From an uncultured Alistipes sp. (lineage in GTDB: Bacteria > Bacteroidota > Bacteroidia > Bacteroidales > Rikenellaceae): 58,706 nucleotides of DNA. The stretch covers positions 1 through 58,706 of the forward strand of contig CALUMM010000010.1 of assembly GCA_944321755.1 (NCBI GenBank), written 5' to 3'. The notes under the pieces are model-generated. The model searched no databases. It was not told the DNA's origin and saw only the letters and a program-made list of their open reading frames with translations. Each line of letters opens with the position of its first letter. Positions within the stretch are counted from its first letter, which is position 1. The position numbers and the translations under genes were made by a program. Below are positions 4,967 through 13,891 of this stretch, piece by piece.

Positions 4967-5122
4967 GTGAACGTTTTTGTTTGGTCGTATGACGTTGCCG
5001 CCGGGGGCCGGGGCCTGTGTGCGGCGGTCCCTACAAAGATAGCGGCTTTTGGCTCTCGTTCGCCGGGATCACTCTTTTTTCATTGTATTAACCGCACTTT
5101 TTTATACTTTTTAGGCAACTTC

Positions 5123-5320
5123 CCGGTCGTCGGATTAGCCGCTTTTTGAGTCGGCAAAAAGCGGCGCAAAAACCGCCCGGCGTGCGAAAAAGCGCGGAAA
5201 GAGTGCGTTCCTTCATGGCGCCGGGCGACTTCGCGGGTTTGCAAGCAAACCGTCCCCGGCGCTCGTATTCCGGTACGTGCTCTTTCTTTTTCGCGTTTTT
5301 CGCAGAGCCGGAATCCCTTT
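5123..5320 (+). repeat. Intergenic repeat A, copy 1
   Basis: About 198 bp nearly identical to 5651-5850, differing mainly in a short patch near 5262-5290. It begins with an 11-bp perfect inverted repeat (5138-5165, GCCGCTTTTTG/CAAAAAGCGGC). Confidence 0.8.
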
Positions 5321-5489
5321 ACTTTTACCTGCTCTGTTTCTTGCTTTTGCGCGTAAAAAATTCCACCGCATTCTCGCGTTGCGCGGAAAAAGGTCCGGCA
5401 GGCGTCCCCGCGCCCGGAGCGGGAGGAAGGATAGGCGAAGATCTTCCTTCGCCCGCTCAGCGGGAACGACGGCCGGAACCCGCGCAAGG

Positions 5490-5650: not shown

Positions 5651-5850
5651 CCGGTCGTCGGATTTAAGCCGCTTTTTGAGTCGGCAAAAAGCGGCGCAAA
5701 AACCGCCCGGCGTGCGAAAAAGCGCGGAAAGAGTGCGTTCCTTCATGGCGCCGGGCGACTTCGCGGGTTTGCAAGCAAACCGTCCCCGGCGCTTGCATTC
5801 CGGTCCGCGCTCTTTCTTGATCGCGTTTTTCGCAGAGCCGGAATCCTTTT
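5651..5850 (+). repeat. Intergenic repeat A, copy 2
   Basis: Second copy of the 5123-5320 repeat, offset by 528 bp. It keeps the same 11-bp inverted repeat at 5668-5695. Confidence 0.8.
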
Positions 5851-5900
5851 ATATGCGCAAAATTTATATGTGTAGAATTACCTCCGCATTTCCGCGCAAC

Positions 5901-6003
5901 GCGACATGCGGATGGTTTTGGTGGCACCTTTTGCCACCAACCGGCTTAAGAAGCCGGTTTTAGGGGGCGAAAGGAAGCATATCACAAATCGGCTCCCGTT
6001 CTG
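5901..6003 (+). repeat. Intergenic repeat B, copy 2
   Basis: Second copy of 5490-5592, with the same hairpin at 5941-5957. A fourth hairpin copy follows at 6007-6023, about 35 bp downstream of the tcdA stop codon in the tcdA reading direction. Confidence 0.8.
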
Positions 6004-6056: not shown

Positions 6057-6779
6057 TTATTCCAGTTCGCCGATCAGGCCGCGGATAACCACCGAGGCGC
6101 AGGTGATTCCGAATGCCGCCGGGATGTAGGAGATGGTTCCGACGTTGGATTTCTTGTTCTGCTCCTCGCAGAGGATCATCGCCCCTTCGCGGATCGGCTC
6201 GGGCGAGAAGACGGCCCGGAAGCCGCTGTGAATCCCGAGTTTGTGGAGCCGTTTGCGGAGCATGTGGGCCAGCGGGCAGTGGTGGGTCTTCGCGATGTCG
6301 GCAATCTCGATCCGCGTGGGGTCCATCTTGGCCCCGGCGCCCATCGAACTGACGAGCGGCAGGCGGCGTTCGAGCGCCGCGGCAATGAGGGCGAGTTTCG
6401 GGGAGAGGGTGTCGATGGCGTCGACCACGTAGTCGTAGCGGGCTGCATCGAGCAGCCGGTAGGTCTCCTCGTCGCGGATGTAGCGGTTGACGACCGTGAG
6501 GTCGATTTCGGGGTTGATGTCGCGCAGGCGTTCGGCCAAAATGTCGGCCTTCTGCCGCCCGACGGTCGAGTGCAGGGCGACGAGCTGGCGGTTGATGTTC
6601 GTGGTGTTCACGGCATCGGCATCGGCAATGGTCATCGTCCCGACGCCCGCGCGGGCCACCATCTCGGCGGCATAGGCTCCCACGCCGCCCAGTCCGACGA
6701 CCAGGACATGGGCCTGTTTCAAACGGGCGAGTTTCTCCTCGCCCAACAGCAGTTCCGTTCTCTCCAGCCAGTTATCCAT
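6057..6779 (-). CDS. tcdA: tRNA threonylcarbamoyladenosine dehydratase
   Basis: A 240-residue E1-like (ThiF/MoeB fold) enzyme that makes the ATP-dependent cyclic form of t6A at position 37 of ANN-decoding tRNAs. The nucleotide-binding loop is HVLVVGLGGVGAYAAEMVAR at about residues 24-43. The family features DADAVNTTNINRQL, DAIDTLSPK and SSMGAGAKMDPTRI are all present, and the protein lacks the C-terminal rhodanese or sulfur-carrier parts of ThiF/MoeB enzymes. Its start overlaps the end of the upstream tatD-like gene by 8 bp, so the two form an operon. It is distinct from the thiF gene at 53.0-53.7 kb. Confidence 0.92.
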   Translation of the reverse strand: MDNWLERTELLLGEEKLARLKQAHVLVVGLGGVGAYAAEMVARAGVGTMTIADADAVNTTNINRQLVALHSTVGRQKADILAERLRDINPEIDLTVVNRYIRDEETYRLLDAARYDYVVDAIDTLSPKLALIAAALERRLPLVSSMGAGAKMDPTRIEIADIAKTHHCPLAHMLRKRLHKLGIHSGFRAVFSPEPIREGAMILCEEQNKKSNVGTISYIPAAFGITCASVVIRGLIGELE

Positions 6780-7725
6780 TTTGTGTTTCGAATAGTCGTT
6801 TGTAATTTTCGAGGGTGGCGCGTTGCAGCTCCTCCACCGGACGGCCCAACGCTTCGGCCGCCCGGGCGTAGATCTCCTCGATGGTCACCTCGGCGTCGTC
6901 GGTCTCGAAGAAGAGCTGCCCGAGGGGTGTTTCGTGCAGGGCCCGGAGGGTTTTGGGCGACGCGAAGGCGCGCGCTCCGAACGAGAGGTAATAACCTCTC
7001 CGCAGGGCCTGCCGGGCCTGTTCGGGGGAGCCGATGAATCCGTGGAAGATCACGGCCCGGGGCTGGCAGGCATCGAGTTCGCGCATCAGCGGCTCGAAGG
7101 CCCGCACGCAGTGCAGCACGACGGGCCGTCCGGTGCGGCGGGCCAGGGTGAGTTGTGCGCGCAGGGCGGCGAACTGGGCTTCGCGGGAGACAGGACAGGC
7201 GAAGTCGAGTCCGGTTTCGCCGATGGCCTGCACGCCGGCGGCTCTTTTCCCGGCGGCTCTTTTCCCGGCGGTCGCGGCCCCGACAATCTCGTTCTCGACA
7301 AGCCCCGCTCCGGCGGTCGCGGCCCCGACAATCTCGTTCTCGACAAGCCCCGCTCCGGCGGTCGCGGCCCCGACAATCTTGTCCCCGACAAGCCCCGCCC
7401 CGGTGGTCGCGGCCCTGACAACCCAGGCCTCGACATTCCCGGTCTTGGCGGCTCCGCCCCCGACATCCCCACACCCGACATCCCCGCCTCCGACATTTCC
7501 GTCCCCGGCGGTCGCGGCCCCGGCAATCTTGCCCCCGACATATCCGTCCCCGGCGGTTGCGCTTCCGGCAACTTCGGTTCCGGAGTTTCCATCCTTGTCG
7601 GCGAACCGGGCGGCAAAGGCCTCCACATCCTGAGAATCAGCCTCCCAGGGGTGTATGCCCGCGGTGCGGAGTTCGATTCCGCGGCCTGTGGGGCGGTGGG
7701 TGTGTATGTTTACATAAGGGAGCAT
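6772..7725 (-). CDS. TatD-family metal-dependent hydrolase with an internal Gly/Ala-rich repeat insertion
   Basis: A 317-residue TIM-barrel hydrolase of the TatD DNase family. Metal ligands are seen in NIHTHRP (HxH, residues 7-10), GETGLDF (Glu), VVLHCVRAF (His), VIFHGFIGS (His) and LFFETDD (Asp). Between GIHPWEA and GETGLDF, where family members normally have a short loop, lies about 110 residues of Gly/Ala/Val/Thr repeats with a 15-residue period (VGAATAGAGLVENEI). Without it the protein would be about 205 residues, close to a compact TatD. The start MLPYVNIHTH is chosen because the metal motif normally follows within ten residues; the longer upstream frame looks untranslated. It is the first gene of the operon with tcdA. 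Substrate is unknown. Confidence 0.85.
   Translation of the reverse strand: MLPYVNIHTHRPTGRGIELRTAGIHPWEADSQDVEAFAARFADKDGNSGTEVAGSATAGDGYVGGKIAGAATAGDGNVGGGDVGCGDVGGGAAKTGNVEAWVVRAATTGAGLVGDKIVGAATAGAGLVENEIVGAATAGAGLVENEIVGAATAGKRAAGKRAAGVQAIGETGLDFACPVSREAQFAALRAQLTLARRTGRPVVLHCVRAFEPLMRELDACQPRAVIFHGFIGSPEQARQALRRGYYLSFGARAFASPKTLRALHETPLGQLFFETDDAEVTIEEIYARAAEALGRPVEELQRATLENYKRLFETQNG
7267..7446 (-). repeat. In-frame 45-bp minisatellite inside the TatD-like gene
   Basis: Four consecutive 45-bp units begin at 7267, 7312, 7357 and 7402. The first two and most of the third are almost identical; diverged relatives extend on both sides (about 7247-7590). The 45-bp period keeps the reading frame. 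Confidence 0.9.
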
Positions 7726-7733
7726 CGGAGAAG

Positions 7734-7741
7734 CAAAAATA
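7734..7741 (-). promoter_or_regulatory. Probable -7 element for the tatD-tcdA operon
   Basis: On the minus strand this reads TATTTTTG, matching TAnnTTTG. It lies only 8 bp before the ATG at 7725, implying a very short leader or leaderless mRNA. The -33 element is weak. Confidence 0.35.
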
Positions 7742-7785
7742 GGAATTTTAAGTAAATTTAAGAAATAATGCTTCGCGGGATGGCT

Positions 7786-7811
7786 TTTGTCGGAAAAATT
7801 TTGTACTTTCG
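7786..7811 (+). promoter_or_regulatory. Possible promoter for the nqr operon
   Basis: TTTG (7786-7789) and TACTTTCG (7804-7811, one mismatch to TAnnTTTG) precede nqrA by about 135 bp. The 14-bp spacing is shorter than the usual 19-21, so the -33 assignment is doubtful. Confidence 0.35.
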
Positions 7812-7946
7812 CACGCGAAATAATTGTTAGTCTGCTAACAGCCGACGCTCCGAATCGATGTTTGTTTCGCGAGCGTATGTCATGTGCGGACCCCGATGTG
7901 TTGAAACCGGAAACCAAACACACAAAATAATTCAAACTCTTTAACC

Positions 7947-9302
7947 ATGTCGAAAATCATTACATTACGCAAGGGTTTAGACATCAATCTGGTGGGCAAA
8001 CCCCAGGAGTCGCTGGCGGAAGCGCCGATGGCTTCGGAGTATGCCCTCTCGCCCCTGGATTTCGAGGGAGTGACACCGAAATTGCTGGTTAAGGTGGGTG
8101 ATCGGGTGAAGGCCGGTACGGCGTTGTTCTTCAACAAGTTCAACGAGCGCGTACTCTTCACGTCTCCCGTCAGCGGCACGGTGTCGGCCATCAATCGGGG
8201 CGAGAAGCGCAAGGTGCTTTCGGTGGCTGTGACCCCGGACTCCAGGCAGGAGTACGAGCCGTTCACGGTTCCGAGCCTCGAAAAGGCCTCGCGCGAGGAG
8301 ATAGTCGAACTTTTGCTCCGTTCGGGCCTGTGGCCGATGGTCGTTCAGCGGCCTTACGGCATCATTGCGGATCCCGCGGACACGCCGAAGTCGATTTTTG
8401 TTTCGGCGTTTGATTCGGCGCCCCAGGCTCCGGACTACAATTTCGCGCTGAAAGGCGAACAGAAGAACCTCCAGACGGGTATCGAGGTGCTCCGCAAGCT
8501 CACTCCGGGGAAGGTTCACCTCTCGGTTCGCGCGAAGAGCGAAGGTCAGATGCCCCAGCTCAAGGGTGTCGAGTTGCACACCTTTGCCGGGAAACACCCC
8601 GTGGGTAACGTGGGCGTGCAGATCCACCACATCGACCCGATCAACAAGGGCGATCTGGTCTGGACGGTGAACATCCAGGATCTGGCGATTATCGGCCGCC
8701 TGTTCAACGAGGGGCGTGTCGACCGGACGAAGACGATCGCCGTAGCGGGCTCGGAGATCGAGCACCCGCAGTACGTGCGCGTCATCGACGGCGCGAAGGT
8801 CGATTCGATCGTCAAGGGCAATGTCAAGGCGCAGCAGGAGGGCGACTCCGTGCGTTTCATTTCGGGGAACGTGCTGACCGGCACGAAGACGTCGCTCGAC
8901 GGCTTTCTGGGCTTCTATGCCCACCAACTGACGGCCATCCCCGAGGGCGACAAGTACGAGCTGCTGGGCTGGGCGATGCCGCGCTTCAAGAAGTTCTCGG
9001 TATCGCGGGCCTACTTCTCGTGGCTGTGCCCGCGCAAGGCCTACGATCTGGATACGAACCTGAACGGCGGTGAACGTCCCTTCGTGGTGACGGGCCTCTA
9101 TGAGCAGTATCTGCCGATGGACATCTACCCGATGTACCTGCTGAAGGCGTGCCTGGCGGGCGACATCGAGAAGATGGAGAACCTGGGCATCTACGAGGTC
9201 ACGGAGGAGGATTTTGCGCTGTGCGAGTTCGTGGATCCCTCGAAGATCGAGATCCAGCAGATCATCCGCGACGGTATTAACTTAATGATCAAGGAGGCTT
9301 AA
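7947..9302 (+). CDS. nqrA: Na+-translocating NADH:quinone reductase subunit A
   Basis: The 451-residue cytoplasmic subunit of Na+-NQR, which couples NADH oxidation by quinone to sodium export. It starts ITLRKGLDINLVGKPQ, the characteristic NqrA opening, followed by a barrel-sandwich-like segment (VGDRVKAGTALFFNKFNER). Later family segments include GGERPFVVTGLYEQYLPMD and the end EIQQIIRDGINLMIKEA. It is the first of six tightly packed genes, nqrABCDEF, with 2 bp to nqrB. The length is normal. Confidence 0.96.
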   Translation: MSKIITLRKGLDINLVGKPQESLAEAPMASEYALSPLDFEGVTPKLLVKVGDRVKAGTALFFNKFNERVLFTSPVSGTVSAINRGEKRKVLSVAVTPDSRQEYEPFTVPSLEKASREEIVELLLRSGLWPMVVQRPYGIIADPADTPKSIFVSAFDSAPQAPDYNFALKGEQKNLQTGIEVLRKLTPGKVHLSVRAKSEGQMPQLKGVELHTFAGKHPVGNVGVQIHHIDPINKGDLVWTVNIQDLAIIGRLFNEGRVDRTKTIAVAGSEIEHPQYVRVIDGAKVDSIVKGNVKAQQEGDSVRFISGNVLTGTKTSLDGFLGFYAHQLTAIPEGDKYELLGWAMPRFKKFSVSRAYFSWLCPRKAYDLDTNLNGGERPFVVTGLYEQYLPMDIYPMYLLKACLAGDIEKMENLGIYEVTEEDFALCEFVDPSKIEIQQIIRDGINLMIKEA

Positions 9303-9304
9303 AG

Positions 9305-10465
9305 ATGGGACTTCGCAAATTCATGGATAAAATCAAGCCCACGTTCTCGAAAGGCGGGAAACTGGGCTTCCTGGAGTCGACGTTCGATGCGTTCGAAACG
9401 TTCCTCTTCGTGCCGAACACGACGACCGTGAAGGGCGCGCACATCCGGGACTGCAACGACATGAAACGCACGATGATCATGGTTGTTCTGGCCCTGATGC
9501 CGGCGTTCCTGTTCGGTTGCTGGTGGACCGGCGCACAGGTGGGTCTGGAAGGATTCCGGGCCTTCTTCTACGGACTGGTGCGGGTGCTGCCGATGGTGTG
9601 CGTGTCGTACATCGTGGGTCTGGCCATCGAATTCTATTTCGCACAGGTGCGCGGGCATGAGGTCAACGAGGGCTTCCTCGTGACGGGACTTCTCATTCCG
9701 ATGATCTTCCCCGTTTCGACGCCGCTGTGGATGGTGGGCCTCTCGACGGCCTTTGCCGTGATCTTCGGCAAGGAGGTCTTCGGCGGTACGGGCATGAACG
9801 TCTTCAACCCGGCGTTGCTGGCCCGTGCGTTTGCCTTCTTCGCCTATACGCCCTCGATGTCGGGCGAGGCGGTCTGGTACTCGAACTGGACGATGATGGG
9901 CGCACAGGTCGACGGCATCACGGGCGCTACGGCCCTCGAACGGCTCGCCTCCTCGAATGCTGACGTGCTGGCCGGCAAGATCGACGTGGCAAGCATGGGC
10001 TATTCGCCGCTGGATGCCTTCCTGGGCATGATCCCGGGGTCGTTCGGCGAGACCTCGACGCTGGCGATCCTGATCGGCGGCGCCATCCTGCTCTTCACGG
10101 GCATCGCCTCGTGGCGGACGATGGTTTCGGTCTTCGTCGGCGGACTGGCGATGGGTTATCTGTTCCAGGCGCTGGGCGTGACGACGTATCCGGCCTGGTG
10201 GCATCTGATCGTGGGCGGCTTCGCCTTCGGTGCGGTCTTCATGGCTACGGACCCCGTGACCTCGGCCCAGACCAACAAGGGCAAGTACATCGTGGGTCTG
10301 ATGACGGGCGCCCTGGCGGTTCTGATCCGCGTGGTGAACCCGGCCTACCCGGAGGGTATGATGCTTTCGATCCTCTTCATGAACGCGCTGGCACCGCTTG
10401 TAGACTACTTCGTGGTCGAGGCGAACATTTCGCGGCGCAAGAAACGTGTGAAACTCGCAAAATAG
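9305..10465 (+). CDS. nqrB: Na+-translocating NADH:quinone reductase subunit B
   Basis: A 386-residue polytopic membrane subunit related to RnfD, carrying covalent FMN and taking part in quinone reduction and sodium transfer. The FMN-attachment Thr is expected in GITGATALERL, equivalent to the SGAT motif of Vibrio NqrB. About ten hydrophobic helices are visible, for example MIMVVLALMPAFLFGCWW and LAILIGGAILLFTGIASW. The gene starts 2 bp after nqrA and ends 7 bp before nqrC. Confidence 0.96.
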   Translation: MGLRKFMDKIKPTFSKGGKLGFLESTFDAFETFLFVPNTTTVKGAHIRDCNDMKRTMIMVVLALMPAFLFGCWWTGAQVGLEGFRAFFYGLVRVLPMVCVSYIVGLAIEFYFAQVRGHEVNEGFLVTGLLIPMIFPVSTPLWMVGLSTAFAVIFGKEVFGGTGMNVFNPALLARAFAFFAYTPSMSGEAVWYSNWTMMGAQVDGITGATALERLASSNADVLAGKIDVASMGYSPLDAFLGMIPGSFGETSTLAILIGGAILLFTGIASWRTMVSVFVGGLAMGYLFQALGVTTYPAWWHLIVGGFAFGAVFMATDPVTSAQTNKGKYIVGLMTGALAVLIRVVNPAYPEGMMLSILFMNALAPLVDYFVVEANISRRKKRVKLAK

Positions 10466-10472
10466 GGGAACC

Positions 10473-11348
10473 ATGGCAACGAAAAGATTCAAATGCAACG
10501 TTTGCGGCTATATCCACGAAGGGGATGCCGCACCCGCAACGTGTCCCGTTTGCGCGGCTCCGGCATCGGAGTTTACCGAACTGAAGGAGTCGGCCGACGC
10601 GGCGGCTCCGAAGAAGAAGGGGCTGTTCAGCGATACGAACAACAACGCCTATATTGTTCTCTACTCGACGGTGATGGTGGTGATCGTGGCGGTTCTGCTG
10701 GCCGTGGCGGCTCTGGCGCTGAAGCCGCGTCAGGATGCCAACGACCTGAACGAGAAGAAACGCAACATCCTCGCATCGCTGTCGGCCGAAGGCGAGACCT
10801 ACGACCGGTTCATCGACGCCTATGTGGTCGACGCAGAGGGTCAGCGCACCGACGGTGACGTCTTCGCGCTGCTGAACGACCTGCCGACGGCCTTTGCCGA
10901 AGGCAAGTACCCGATCTTCGAGGCGAAGGACGGCCGCGTGGTGATCCCGGTGACGGGAGCAGGCCTGTGGGGGCCGATCTGGGGCTACGTGGCCCTGGAG
11001 AAGGACATGAACACGGTTTCGGGCATCATCATGGCGCACAAGGGTGAGACCCCGGGTCTGGGCGCCGAGATCGCCACGGCGAAGTACCAGTCGAAATTCG
11101 TCGGGAAGACGATTTTCGAGGGTGACGAGTTCGTGTCGGTGACGCTTCGCAAGGGCGGGGCGAAGGACCCTGCGCACGAGGTGGATGCCATTACGGGCGG
11201 CACGAAGACTTCGGACGGAGTGACGGCGATGCTCCGCAACAGTCTGGAGAACTACCTGCCGCTGCTGGAGTCGAAGCGGGCCGCCGCGGAGACGGGGGCT
11301 GCGGCCGGGGAAGTGTCTAACGAAGAAAATGCAGAAAGCCATGAGTAA
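10473..11348 (+). CDS. nqrC: Na+-NQR subunit C with an N-terminal rubredoxin-like domain
   Basis: A 291-residue protein in the nqrC position. Residues 1-35 form a rubredoxin-like zinc/iron ribbon with two CxxC pairs (C8/C11 and C24/C27; [10 protein letters not shown] and [11 protein letters not shown]), similar to the C-terminal domain of rubrerythrins. A linker of about 20 residues leads to one membrane helix at about residues 58-83. The periplasmic FMN-binding domain follows, with the flavin-attachment Thr expected in [11 protein letters not shown]. Ordinary NqrC starts directly at the membrane helix. The extra domain would face the cytoplasm, near the NqrF redox centres. NqrC identity is secure from context and FMN domain; the function of the added domain is unknown. 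Confidence 0.93.
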
Positions 11349-11967
11349 CAACATGAAATATCTGACGGGTCCGTTCTCTGCGAACAACCCGGTGATCGTT
11401 CAGATTCTGGGAATCTGCTCGGCACTGGCCGTAACCGTCCAGCTCAAGCCCGCGATCGTGATGGCGCTGAGCGTGACGGTGGTGACGGCCTTTTCGAACC
11501 TGGTGATGTCGCTGCTGCGCAACGGTGTTCCGGCGCGTATCCGCATCATCGTGCAGCTGGTGGTGATTGCGGCGCTTGTGATTCTGGTGGACCAGGTGCT
11601 GAAGGCCTACGTCTACGAGATTTCGAAGCAGTTGTCGGTCTACGTGGGTCTGATCATCACGAACTGTATCGTCATGGGCCGTGTGGAGGCCTTCGCCCTG
11701 GGCAACAAGCCGTGGGCGTCGTTCCTCGACGGTATCGGCAACGGCCTGGGTTACGGCATGATCCTGGTGATCGTGGCCTTTTTCCGGGAGTTGTTCGGCT
11801 CGGGGAGCCTGCTGGGCTTCCGGATCATCCCGGAGAGCTGGTACATGACCGAAGGGGGATTCTATTCGAACTGCGGTCTGATGCTCTTCCCGCCGATGGC
11901 GCTGATCATCGTGGGTTGCATCATCTGGGTGCACCGCTCGCGCAACAAGGACTTACAGGAAAAATAG
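11341..11967 (+). CDS. nqrD: Na+-NQR subunit D
   Basis: A 208-residue membrane subunit with about six helices, related to RnfE/RnfA, which helps form the sodium path and an iron-sulfur site in the membrane. Family segments are [20 protein letters not shown], with the conserved Cys, and [19 protein letters not shown]. The start [13 protein letters not shown] at 11341 overlaps the nqrC stop by 8 bp; an ATG four codons upstream (11329) is an alternative. It is followed 11 bp later by nqrE. Confidence 0.95.
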
Positions 11968-11978
11968 GAGGGTAGCAT

Positions 11979-12608
11979 ATGGAATCATTGAATATCTTCA
12001 TCCGGTCGATCTTTATCGACAACATGGTCTTCGCCTTCTTCTTCGGCATGTGTTCCTACATCGCCGTATCGAAGAGCGTGAAGACGGCCCTGGGCCTGGG
12101 TGCGGCCGTCACGTTCGTGATGGTGATGACCGTACCGCTGAACTACCTTCTTTATGAGTACATTCTCAAGCCGGGCGCGCTTCATGCGTGGATTCCTGCG
12201 GTTCCGGAGAGTGTGGATCTGAACTTCCTGTCGTTCATCGTCTTCATCGCGACGATTGCGGCGTTCGTGCAGCTGGTCGAGATGATCGTCGAGAAGTTCT
12301 CGCCGACGCTTTACAGCCAGCTGGGCATCTTCCTGCCGCTGATTGCGGTGAACTGTGCGATCATGGGCGGTTCGCTGTTCATGCAGCAGAAGGTCGACGC
12401 CGGGGAATTGGATACGCTGTGGCAGTCGATCGTCTACGGTCTGGGTTCGGGTCTGGGCTGGTGGCTTGCCATCGTGATGATGGCCGCGATTCGCGAGAAG
12501 ACGACCTATTCGCACATTCCCGCGGCGTTGAAGGGCCCGGGTATCGCCTTCATCATCACGGGTCTGATGGGTATCGCCTTCATGATCTTCTCGGGCATTC
12601 AGTTCTAA
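11979..12608 (+). CDS. nqrE: Na+-NQR subunit E
   Basis: A 209-residue membrane subunit homologous to NqrD and RnfA, with inverted topology. It starts MESLNIFIRSIFIDNMVFAF, and the conserved iron-sulfur Cys positions are in FFGMCSYIAVSKSVKTALG and LIAVNCAIMGGSLFM. About six hydrophobic helices are visible. It lies between nqrD (11 bp) and nqrF (20 bp). Confidence 0.96.
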   Translation: MESLNIFIRSIFIDNMVFAFFFGMCSYIAVSKSVKTALGLGAAVTFVMVMTVPLNYLLYEYILKPGALHAWIPAVPESVDLNFLSFIVFIATIAAFVQLVEMIVEKFSPTLYSQLGIFLPLIAVNCAIMGGSLFMQQKVDAGELDTLWQSIVYGLGSGLGWWLAIVMMAAIREKTTYSHIPAALKGPGIAFIITGLMGIAFMIFSGIQF

Positions 12609-12628: not shown

Positions 12629-13891
12629 ATGACTACAACGATTTTAATAGCGATTGCGGCCTTTCTGGTCATCACGCTGGTGCTTGTGGCGCTGCTTTTG
12701 TACGCGAAGGCGAAGCTGACGACGTCGGGGGCCGTTACGATCGACATCAACAACGGCGAGAAGGTCATTACGACGGAGAGCGGCTCGACGCTTCTGTCGA
12801 CGTTGGCCAACAACAAGGTCTTTCTTCCTTCGGCGTGCGGCGGGGGCGGTTCGTGCGGGATGTGCAAGTGCCAGGTTCTGGAGGGCGGTGGCGACATTCT
12901 GCCCACGGAGACGGGCTTCATCACGCGGAAGATGGCCAAGGACCACTGGCGGCTGGGTTGCCAGGTGAAGGTGAAGAACGACCTGAAGATCCGGGTTCCG
13001 GAGGCTGTTCTGGGCGTGAAGAAGTGGGAGTGCACGGTGGTTTCGAACCGCAACATCTCTACGTTCCTCAAGGAGTTCGTGGTGAAGCTTCCGGAGGGTG
13101 AGAACCTGAAGTTCCGCAGCGGCGGCTACATCCAGATCGACATTCCGAAGTACGATGCGATCAAGTTCTCGGACATGGACGTGGACGAGAAGTTCCGTGC
13201 CGACTGGGACAAGATGAAGATGTGGGATCTGGTTACGACGAACCCCGAGCCGACGTTCCGCGCCTATTCGATGGCGAACCACCCGGCCGAAGGGAACATC
13301 ATCATGCTGAACATCCGTATTGCGACACCTCCGTTCGACCGGGCCACGGGCACGTTCATGAAGGTGAACCCGGGTATCTGCTCGTCGTACATCTTCTCGC
13401 GCAAGCCGGGCGACAAGGTGACGATTTCGGGACCTTACGGGGAGTTCTTCCTGCCGGACAACCTGCCCGACACGCAGGAGCTGATCTTCATTGGCGGAGG
13501 TGCCGGTATGGCACCGATGCGTAGCCACATCATGCACCTGTTCAAGACGGAGAAGACGAAGCGTCCGGTCTCGTTCTGGTACGGTGCGCGCGCCATGAAG
13601 GAGGCTCCCTACCTGCACGAGTTCCACGAGATCGAGGAGCAGTTCCCGAACTTCAAGTTCAACCTGGCGCTGGACCGTCCGGATCCGGAGGCCGATGCGG
13701 CAGGTGTTCCCTACACGCCGGGCTTCGTGCACAACGTGCTCTACGAGAACTACCTGAAGCACCATCAGGCACCGGAGGACTGCATCTACCTGATGTGCGG
13801 ACCCCCGATGATGATCTCGTCGGTGGTGAAGATGCTCGATTCGCTGGGCGTACCGCCGGAGAACATTCTCTACGACAACTTCGGCAGTTAG
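12629..13891 (+). CDS. nqrF: Na+-NQR subunit F, NADH-oxidising
   Basis: The 420-residue electron entry subunit. One N-terminal membrane helix (TTTILIAIAAFLVITLVLVA) is followed by a 2Fe-2S ferredoxin domain with the CGGGGSCGMCKC cluster motif and a fourth Cys in RLGCQV. A ferredoxin-reductase module then has the FAD motif RAYSMANHP and the NADH-binding segments FIGGGAGMAPMRSH and YLMCGPPMM. The length and order are standard. It is the last gene of the operon; a strong hairpin follows 26 bp later. Confidence 0.97.
   Translation: MTTTILIAIAAFLVITLVLVALLLYAKAKLTTSGAVTIDINNGEKVITTESGSTLLSTLANNKVFLPSACGGGGSCGMCKCQVLEGGGDILPTETGFITRKMAKDHWRLGCQVKVKNDLKIRVPEAVLGVKKWECTVVSNRNISTFLKEFVVKLPEGENLKFRSGGYIQIDIPKYDAIKFSDMDVDEKFRADWDKMKMWDLVTTNPEPTFRAYSMANHPAEGNIIMLNIRIATPPFDRATGTFMKVNPGICSSYIFSRKPGDKVTISGPYGEFFLPDNLPDTQELIFIGGGAGMAPMRSHIMHLFKTEKTKRPVSFWYGARAMKEAPYLHEFHEIEEQFPNFKFNLALDRPDPEADAAGVPYTPGFVHNVLYENYLKHHQAPEDCIYLMCGPPMMISSVVKMLDSLGVPPENILYDNFGS

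Follow-up and report, generated by a model that had tools for sequence, protein, structure and literature searches.

An N-terminal rubrerythrin-type rubredoxin domain on the NqrC subunit of Na+-NQR in Alistipes and other Bacteroidales

The NqrC subunit of Na+-NQR is known from V. cholerae and P. bryantii, where the latter protein is described as 210 amino acids long (PMC6560451). V. cholerae NqrC is described as a periplasmic subunit with one helix that touches helix 3 of NqrD and helix 1 of NqrF (PMC9325719), and it is reported to shift during turnover (PMC10739449, PMC12174285, PMC10643135). Rubredoxin domains are found in two other relevant systems. Reverse rubrerythrins have an N-terminal rubredoxin domain followed by a C-terminal diiron domain; for those of C. 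difficile, the available text of PMC11481553 states that the partners remain to be identified. The same source describes class F flavodiiron proteins, which carry flavodiiron, rubredoxin and NADH:rubredoxin reductase portions in one chain, with NADH electrons travelling via the fused reductase-rubredoxin module. Rubredoxin-dependent oxygen metabolism and rubrerythrin peroxidases are also reported for B. thetaiotaomicron (PMC13252398, a preprint; PMC5210497).

We analysed a 58,706-nucleotide stretch of DNA (hereafter, the window) from an uncultured Alistipes sp. It contains a complete nqrABCDEF operon in which nqrC is the third gene, between nqrB and nqrD:

7947..9302, plus strand: nqrA (TIGR01936, NF003761)
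9305..10465, plus strand: nqrB (TIGR01937)
10473..11348, plus strand: nqrC with N-terminal rubredoxin-like domain, 291 amino acids (Pfam, NCBIfam)
11329..11967, plus strand: nqrD (TIGR01939); the listed ORF overlaps the end of nqrC
11979..12608, plus strand: nqrE (TIGR01940)
12629..13891, plus strand: nqrF, with 2Fe-2S, FAD and NADH sites (TIGR01941, Pfam)

The nqrC gene begins with an ATG 7 bases 3' of the nqrB stop codon. In an NCBIfam scan, its product scored 174.1 bits against the TIGR01938 nqrC model (cut-off 144), and all RnfG models fell under their own cut-offs. The protein resembles known NqrC in its single helix, its FMN domain with a conserved threonine and the position of its gene in the operon, and differs from it by a rubredoxin domain added before the helix. 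Its parts are as follows:

10485..10580, plus strand: rubredoxin-like domain, residues 5-36 (PF21349, PDB matches, conservation, dN/dS)
10494-10496, 10503-10505, 10542-10544 and 10551-10553, plus strand: cysteine codons of the rubredoxin-like domain
10581..10643, plus strand: variable Ala/Lys linker, residues 37-57 (alignment; dN/dS 0.35)
10644..10724, plus strand: single membrane helix, residues about 58-84 (hydropathy, peaking over about 57-87, and NqrC homology)
10962..11249, plus strand: periplasmic FMN-binding domain, residues 164-259 (PF04205 FMN_bind)
11202-11204, plus strand: predicted FMN threonine T244 (by analogy with T225 of V. cholerae)

T244 is invariant in the aligned NqrCs and is the predicted site of FMN attachment.

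An earlier note on this DNA had proposed that a rubrerythrin-type rubredoxin domain precedes the single NqrC helix, and profile searches bear this out. C8, C11, C24 and C27 are spaced as C-x2-C-x12-C-x2-C, and residues 6-34 match PF21349 (RUBY_RBDX) with 52.8 bits, well above the cut-off of 26.5 (E 2.5e-14). This rubrerythrin rubredoxin family is the sole Pfam match of the N-terminal region at E values up to 0.001. When residues 1-46 alone were searched against the PDB, rubrerythrins and rubredoxins were matched, with 1ryt the best (E 9.7e-8); across NCBIfam and the PDB, the region matched rubrerythrins, nigerythrin and rubredoxins. The profile scores, together with the conservation described below, rule out a chance CxxC motif. 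PF02915, the C-terminal diiron domain, gave no match in the Pfam scan of NqrC, so the protein is not itself a reverse rubrerythrin: the two share a like-spaced N-terminal domain that is at most 80% identical over 35 positions, but NqrC has a membrane anchor and FMN domain in place of the diiron domain. Translation starting beyond the CxxC pairs, which the earlier note had named as evidence against the domain, can be rejected. Among the first 100 codons, the first in-frame ATG, GTG or TTG after M1 is at residue 67, inside the helix; no start codon lies between the domain and the helix, and a later start would therefore cut into the membrane helix. A frameshift or assembly artefact is ruled out by the identical single-ORF architecture in independent genomes and named records. 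We conclude that this NqrC is an ordinary Na+-NQR subunit to which a rubrerythrin-type rubredoxin domain is fused in one ORF. The domain probably binds iron.

An alignment of 41 fused NqrCs drawn from several families shows C8, C11, G12, Y13, G17, P21, C24, P25, C27 and F34 to be invariant; the four cysteines were the rule by which these sequences were selected, and the other six residues were not. Zinc ribbons have CxxC/CxxC knuckles as well, which counts towards a structural or docking module, with iron or zinc, that would hold NqrF, fumarate reductase or another partner without transferring electrons. Such a role would also suit a domain that is optional and patchy in its distribution, and the NQR of P. 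bryantii is described as interacting with fumarate reductase through menaquinone (PMC10739449). We consider a docking module unlikely, however: the N-terminal region matches rubrerythrins, nigerythrin and rubredoxins only (Pfam, NCBIfam and PDB), and the G-Y and C-P knuckle residues, which are typical of rubredoxin, are invariant.

Among the segments of NqrC, the rubredoxin domain has the lowest dN/dS (0.093, versus 0.352 for the linker, 0.181 for the helix, 0.282 for the stalk, 0.176 for the FMN domain and 0.354 for the tail; Nei-Gojobori estimates pooled over 131 non-independent within-family pairs, with pS up to 0.53 and no significance test). As a check free of the circularity introduced by the cysteine selection rule, we searched unfused NqrCs with the domain profile. 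From 211 NqrC rows we obtained 197 distinct bodies, 60 of them fused with four intact cysteines and 137 unfused, and none of the 137 contained a decayed remnant of the domain (best E 1.1). Thus, in our sample the domain is either intact or absent, and it is under purifying selection. These two results, a dN/dS of 0.093 and no decayed copy in 137 unfused NqrCs, make it very improbable that the domain is a neutral passenger kept by chance, even though the tree requires many gains or losses and at least one group bears a likely scar of loss.

To follow the fusion among relatives, we scored an NqrC as fused if its match to the window's NqrC query started at residue 1-5; in the genus and family samples, which overlap in genomes, any match better than 1e-20 was called NqrC, partial ones included. 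The genus sample comprised 101 genomes, of which 96 matched and 84 had NqrC, fused in 21. In the family sample of 150 genomes, 30 of the 137 with NqrC had the fusion, 23 of them inside the genus and 7 from four other genera. Among the matches listed for the order sample (295 genomes), at least five fused NqrCs besides the window's own were found, in three other families; two doubtful rows (G350 and G450) proved unfused. Outside the order, the domain was matched in none of 87 matched genomes of the class sample (247 genomes, 94 matched); 15 of these, among them every one with a partial or doubtful N-terminus, were read as ORFs and none was fused, and the other 72 were judged from the match table alone. 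Finally, a scan of named-species genomes yielded fusions, read as ORFs, in 20 of 80 among the loci listed, a proportion skewed to fused loci by the use of the domain as one of two search patterns. The fused records include Alistipes, Tidjanibacter, Parabacteroides (among them P. distasonis An897), Bacteroides sp. Marseille-P3684, a Phocaeicola-labelled MAG, Segatella paludivivens, Prevotella, Prevotellaceae, Paludibacter, Paludibacteraceae, Dysgonamonadaceae and Bacteroidaceae.

The survey of NqrC N-termini that the earlier note had called for thus places the fusion in Rikenellaceae and in several other Bacteroidales families. The note's view that NqrC normally lacks such a domain agrees with the papers on the V. 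cholerae and P. bryantii enzymes but needs qualifying for Bacteroidales, where the fusion is common and hence a recurrent variant rather than the oddity of one genome. In the open-licence literature we found no rubredoxin-bearing NqrC, although this architecture may already be displayed in protein databases. The word "rubredoxin" is absent from the main text of seven papers (PMC10739449, PMC12174285, PMC10979944, PMC6560451, PMC4014512, PMC10643135 and PMC9325719), and the available text of PMC5924567, on Clostridium ultunense, mentions rubredoxin and NQR in unrelated sections. The fused NqrC is a real, conserved and widespread architecture, and as a variant of a known enzyme it has, as far as we have searched, gone unremarked.

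The fusion is patchily distributed. A quick tree of distinct NqrC bodies, from which the domain was omitted, requires at least 19 changes of the trait, 11 of them forced by starred branches; searching with a fused query biased the sample, and a tree made quickly is less reliable. When the junctions of 19 loci were aligned, the domain proved present or absent right behind the nqrB stop codon. The unfused NqrC of Tidjanibacter begins MSKKGFLGGKNSNAY where its fused counterparts have AKKGFLGGKNSNAY, and it looks as though the domain was lost there and the linker left behind. In six loci of this genus (L078, L079 and L194-L197; genus code g20), the unfused NqrC carries a KKxFLGG linker like the stretch behind the domain of its fused relatives, likely a scar of domain loss. 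Elsewhere, the nqrC of one genome (G182; locus L015, about positions 1700-2100) contains a tract of about 400 bases, from helix to stalk, that is 92-98% identical to the G066 lineage and only 38-82% identical to the window, while the rest of the locus is mostly 92-100% identical to the window; we read this tract as intragenic recombination or gene conversion.

As to origin, we inspected 21 rubrerythrins of the family, chosen by similarity to the NqrC domain, and all carry the domain at their N-terminus. Mean domain identity is 0.70 between NqrCs, 0.75 between rubrerythrins and 0.57 between the two (maximum 0.80), and the NqrC domains of the family have a mean identity of 0.65 to NqrC domains from other families and of 0.59 to family rubrerythrins. 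In a domain tree with the 21 family reverse rubrerythrins, the NqrC domains fall on one side of a branch with an SH-aLRT of 87; when 24 rubrerythrins from other families were added, 6 changes were needed and 1 was forced, on 32 columns that are too few to settle origins. The simplest story is that a reverse rubrerythrin gene donated its 5' end to nqrC and that the domain was then repeatedly lost; alternatively, there may have been several captures.

The earlier note had placed the domain on the cytoplasmic side, next to NqrF. By analogy with known NqrC, the domain ahead of the helix would lie in the cytoplasm, close to the ferredoxin domain that is tethered in NqrF. This agrees with the V. cholerae structure as described (PMC9325719) but gains no support from a charge count: 3 Lys or Arg in the 20 residues preceding the helix and 5 after it do not favour an N-in orientation, so the topology stands on homology. 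If the N-terminus is cytoplasmic and adjoins the NqrF helix, the domain could dock to NqrF, the presumed source of its electrons.

We tentatively propose, at somewhat less than an even chance, that the domain is a tethered rubredoxin near NqrF that passes NADH electrons to rubrerythrin-type peroxide or oxygen reductases. A rubredoxin domain with mononuclear iron, like the one with which reverse rubrerythrins begin, joined to NqrC via a flexible linker, would dock from the cytoplasm to the mobile 2Fe-2S and FAD domains of NqrF, accept single electrons originating from NADH and hand them to soluble diiron peroxide or oxygen reductases, rubrerythrins first; NQR would thereby gain a second, non-pumping outlet for NADH under oxygen stress. 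Here we infer iron over zinc, the cytoplasmic side, reduction by NqrF and delivery to rubrerythrin. Such an outlet is plausible: the profile and PDB matches, the invariant residues, the lowest dN/dS and the remnant-free unfused NqrCs argue for it, as do the similarity of the domain to rubrerythrins, the presence of rubrerythrin in 80 of 80 genomes and the helix contact between NqrC and NqrF described for V. cholerae. A class F flavodiiron protein likewise tethers rubredoxin beside an NADH-oxidising flavoenzyme (PMC11481553); it has its terminal oxygen reductase in the same chain, whereas the fused NqrC would need a separate protein and its reductase would be a membrane complex.

The geometry would equally permit rubredoxin-level electrons to enter NQR through the domain. 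Rubredoxin potentials, however, are about 0 to +200 mV, higher than those of the centres in NqrF and NqrD/E, and electron entry would therefore run uphill into the normal chain, so we give it very little credence. Another reading, which we regard as improbable, is a redox sensor or gate: oxidation of the tethered iron by O2 or peroxide would alter docking to NqrF or the swing of NqrC and throttle the pump, with no main electron flux. The domain is optional across the NqrC tree, and V. cholerae NqrC is described as repositioning between states together with its helix, which lies near NqrD and NqrF (PMC10739449, PMC10643135, PMC9325719). Against a gate stands the closeness of the NqrC domain to the rubrerythrin module. 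The role of the rubredoxin module in rubrerythrin is electron transfer.

Reverse rubrerythrin is a peroxidase of these genomes, and PF21349 occurs at four places in the window's assembly:

10473..11348 of the window, plus strand: nqrC
G000:C30: reverse rubrerythrin
G000:C51: conventional rubrerythrin with the domain C-terminal, its gene cut by the contig end
G000:C96: free rubredoxin, below the cut-off

The free rubredoxin could serve rubrerythrin without NQR, which counts against an outlet through NqrC. Among 80 genomes out of a set of 103 (38 with fused and 42 with unfused NqrC), fused and unfused sets did not differ in PF00301 rubredoxin (35 of 38 versus 36 of 42), rubrerythrin (PF02915; 38 of 38 versus 42 of 42, and hence all 80) or cytochrome bd I (20 of 38 versus 20 of 42). 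These three families thus single out no partner, and unfused relatives manage without the domain; the lack of a co-occurring partner gene in the 80 genomes also speaks for a gate.

If NqrC does provide an electron outlet, respiratory NADH would be spent on removing peroxide instead of on conserving energy, and the domain may let the sodium pump pass electrons to peroxide- or oxygen-destroying enzymes. More broadly, and more doubtfully, NQR in many Bacteroidales might be branched: in addition to menaquinone reduction coupled to Na+ export, it would work at the membrane as an NADH:rubredoxin reductase, supplying rubrerythrins as well as rubredoxin-dependent oxygen reductases via a portable domain that reverse rubrerythrin had provided. 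A rubredoxin domain within NQR offers a direct link that is open to deletion, and one genus contains relatives with and without it, making comparison possible.

Other rubredoxin arrangements were seen in these genomes. A superoxide dismutase (SOD) with a C-terminal canonical rubredoxin is encoded as a single ORF in the window's assembly (G000:C8:5737-6459, minus strand) and in loci L160 and L240. A full-length match without stops is present in 13 of 80 family genomes, all with fused NqrC; when mapped on a tree of NqrD from 69 genomes, the SOD-rubredoxin fusion needs only 3 changes, and the independent-pair test has no power, with only 4 pairs on starred branches. That it acts as a superoxide reductase is speculation. 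SOD and free rubredoxin genes adjoin on one strand in at least five genomes (G007, G060, G084, G192 and G214).

Upstream of the operon in the window, two minus-strand ORFs (5080-5487 and 5664-5927) have GTVCLQTREVARRHEGTHSFRAFSHAGRFLRRFLPTQKAA in common, so that a stretch of at least about 120 bases recurs within the region from 5.1 to 5.9 kb. A further minus-strand ORF (6772-7935), whose ends we take to resemble a TatD-type hydrolase, contains a long repetitive Gly/Ala/Val insert with AATAGAGLVENEIVG repeats.
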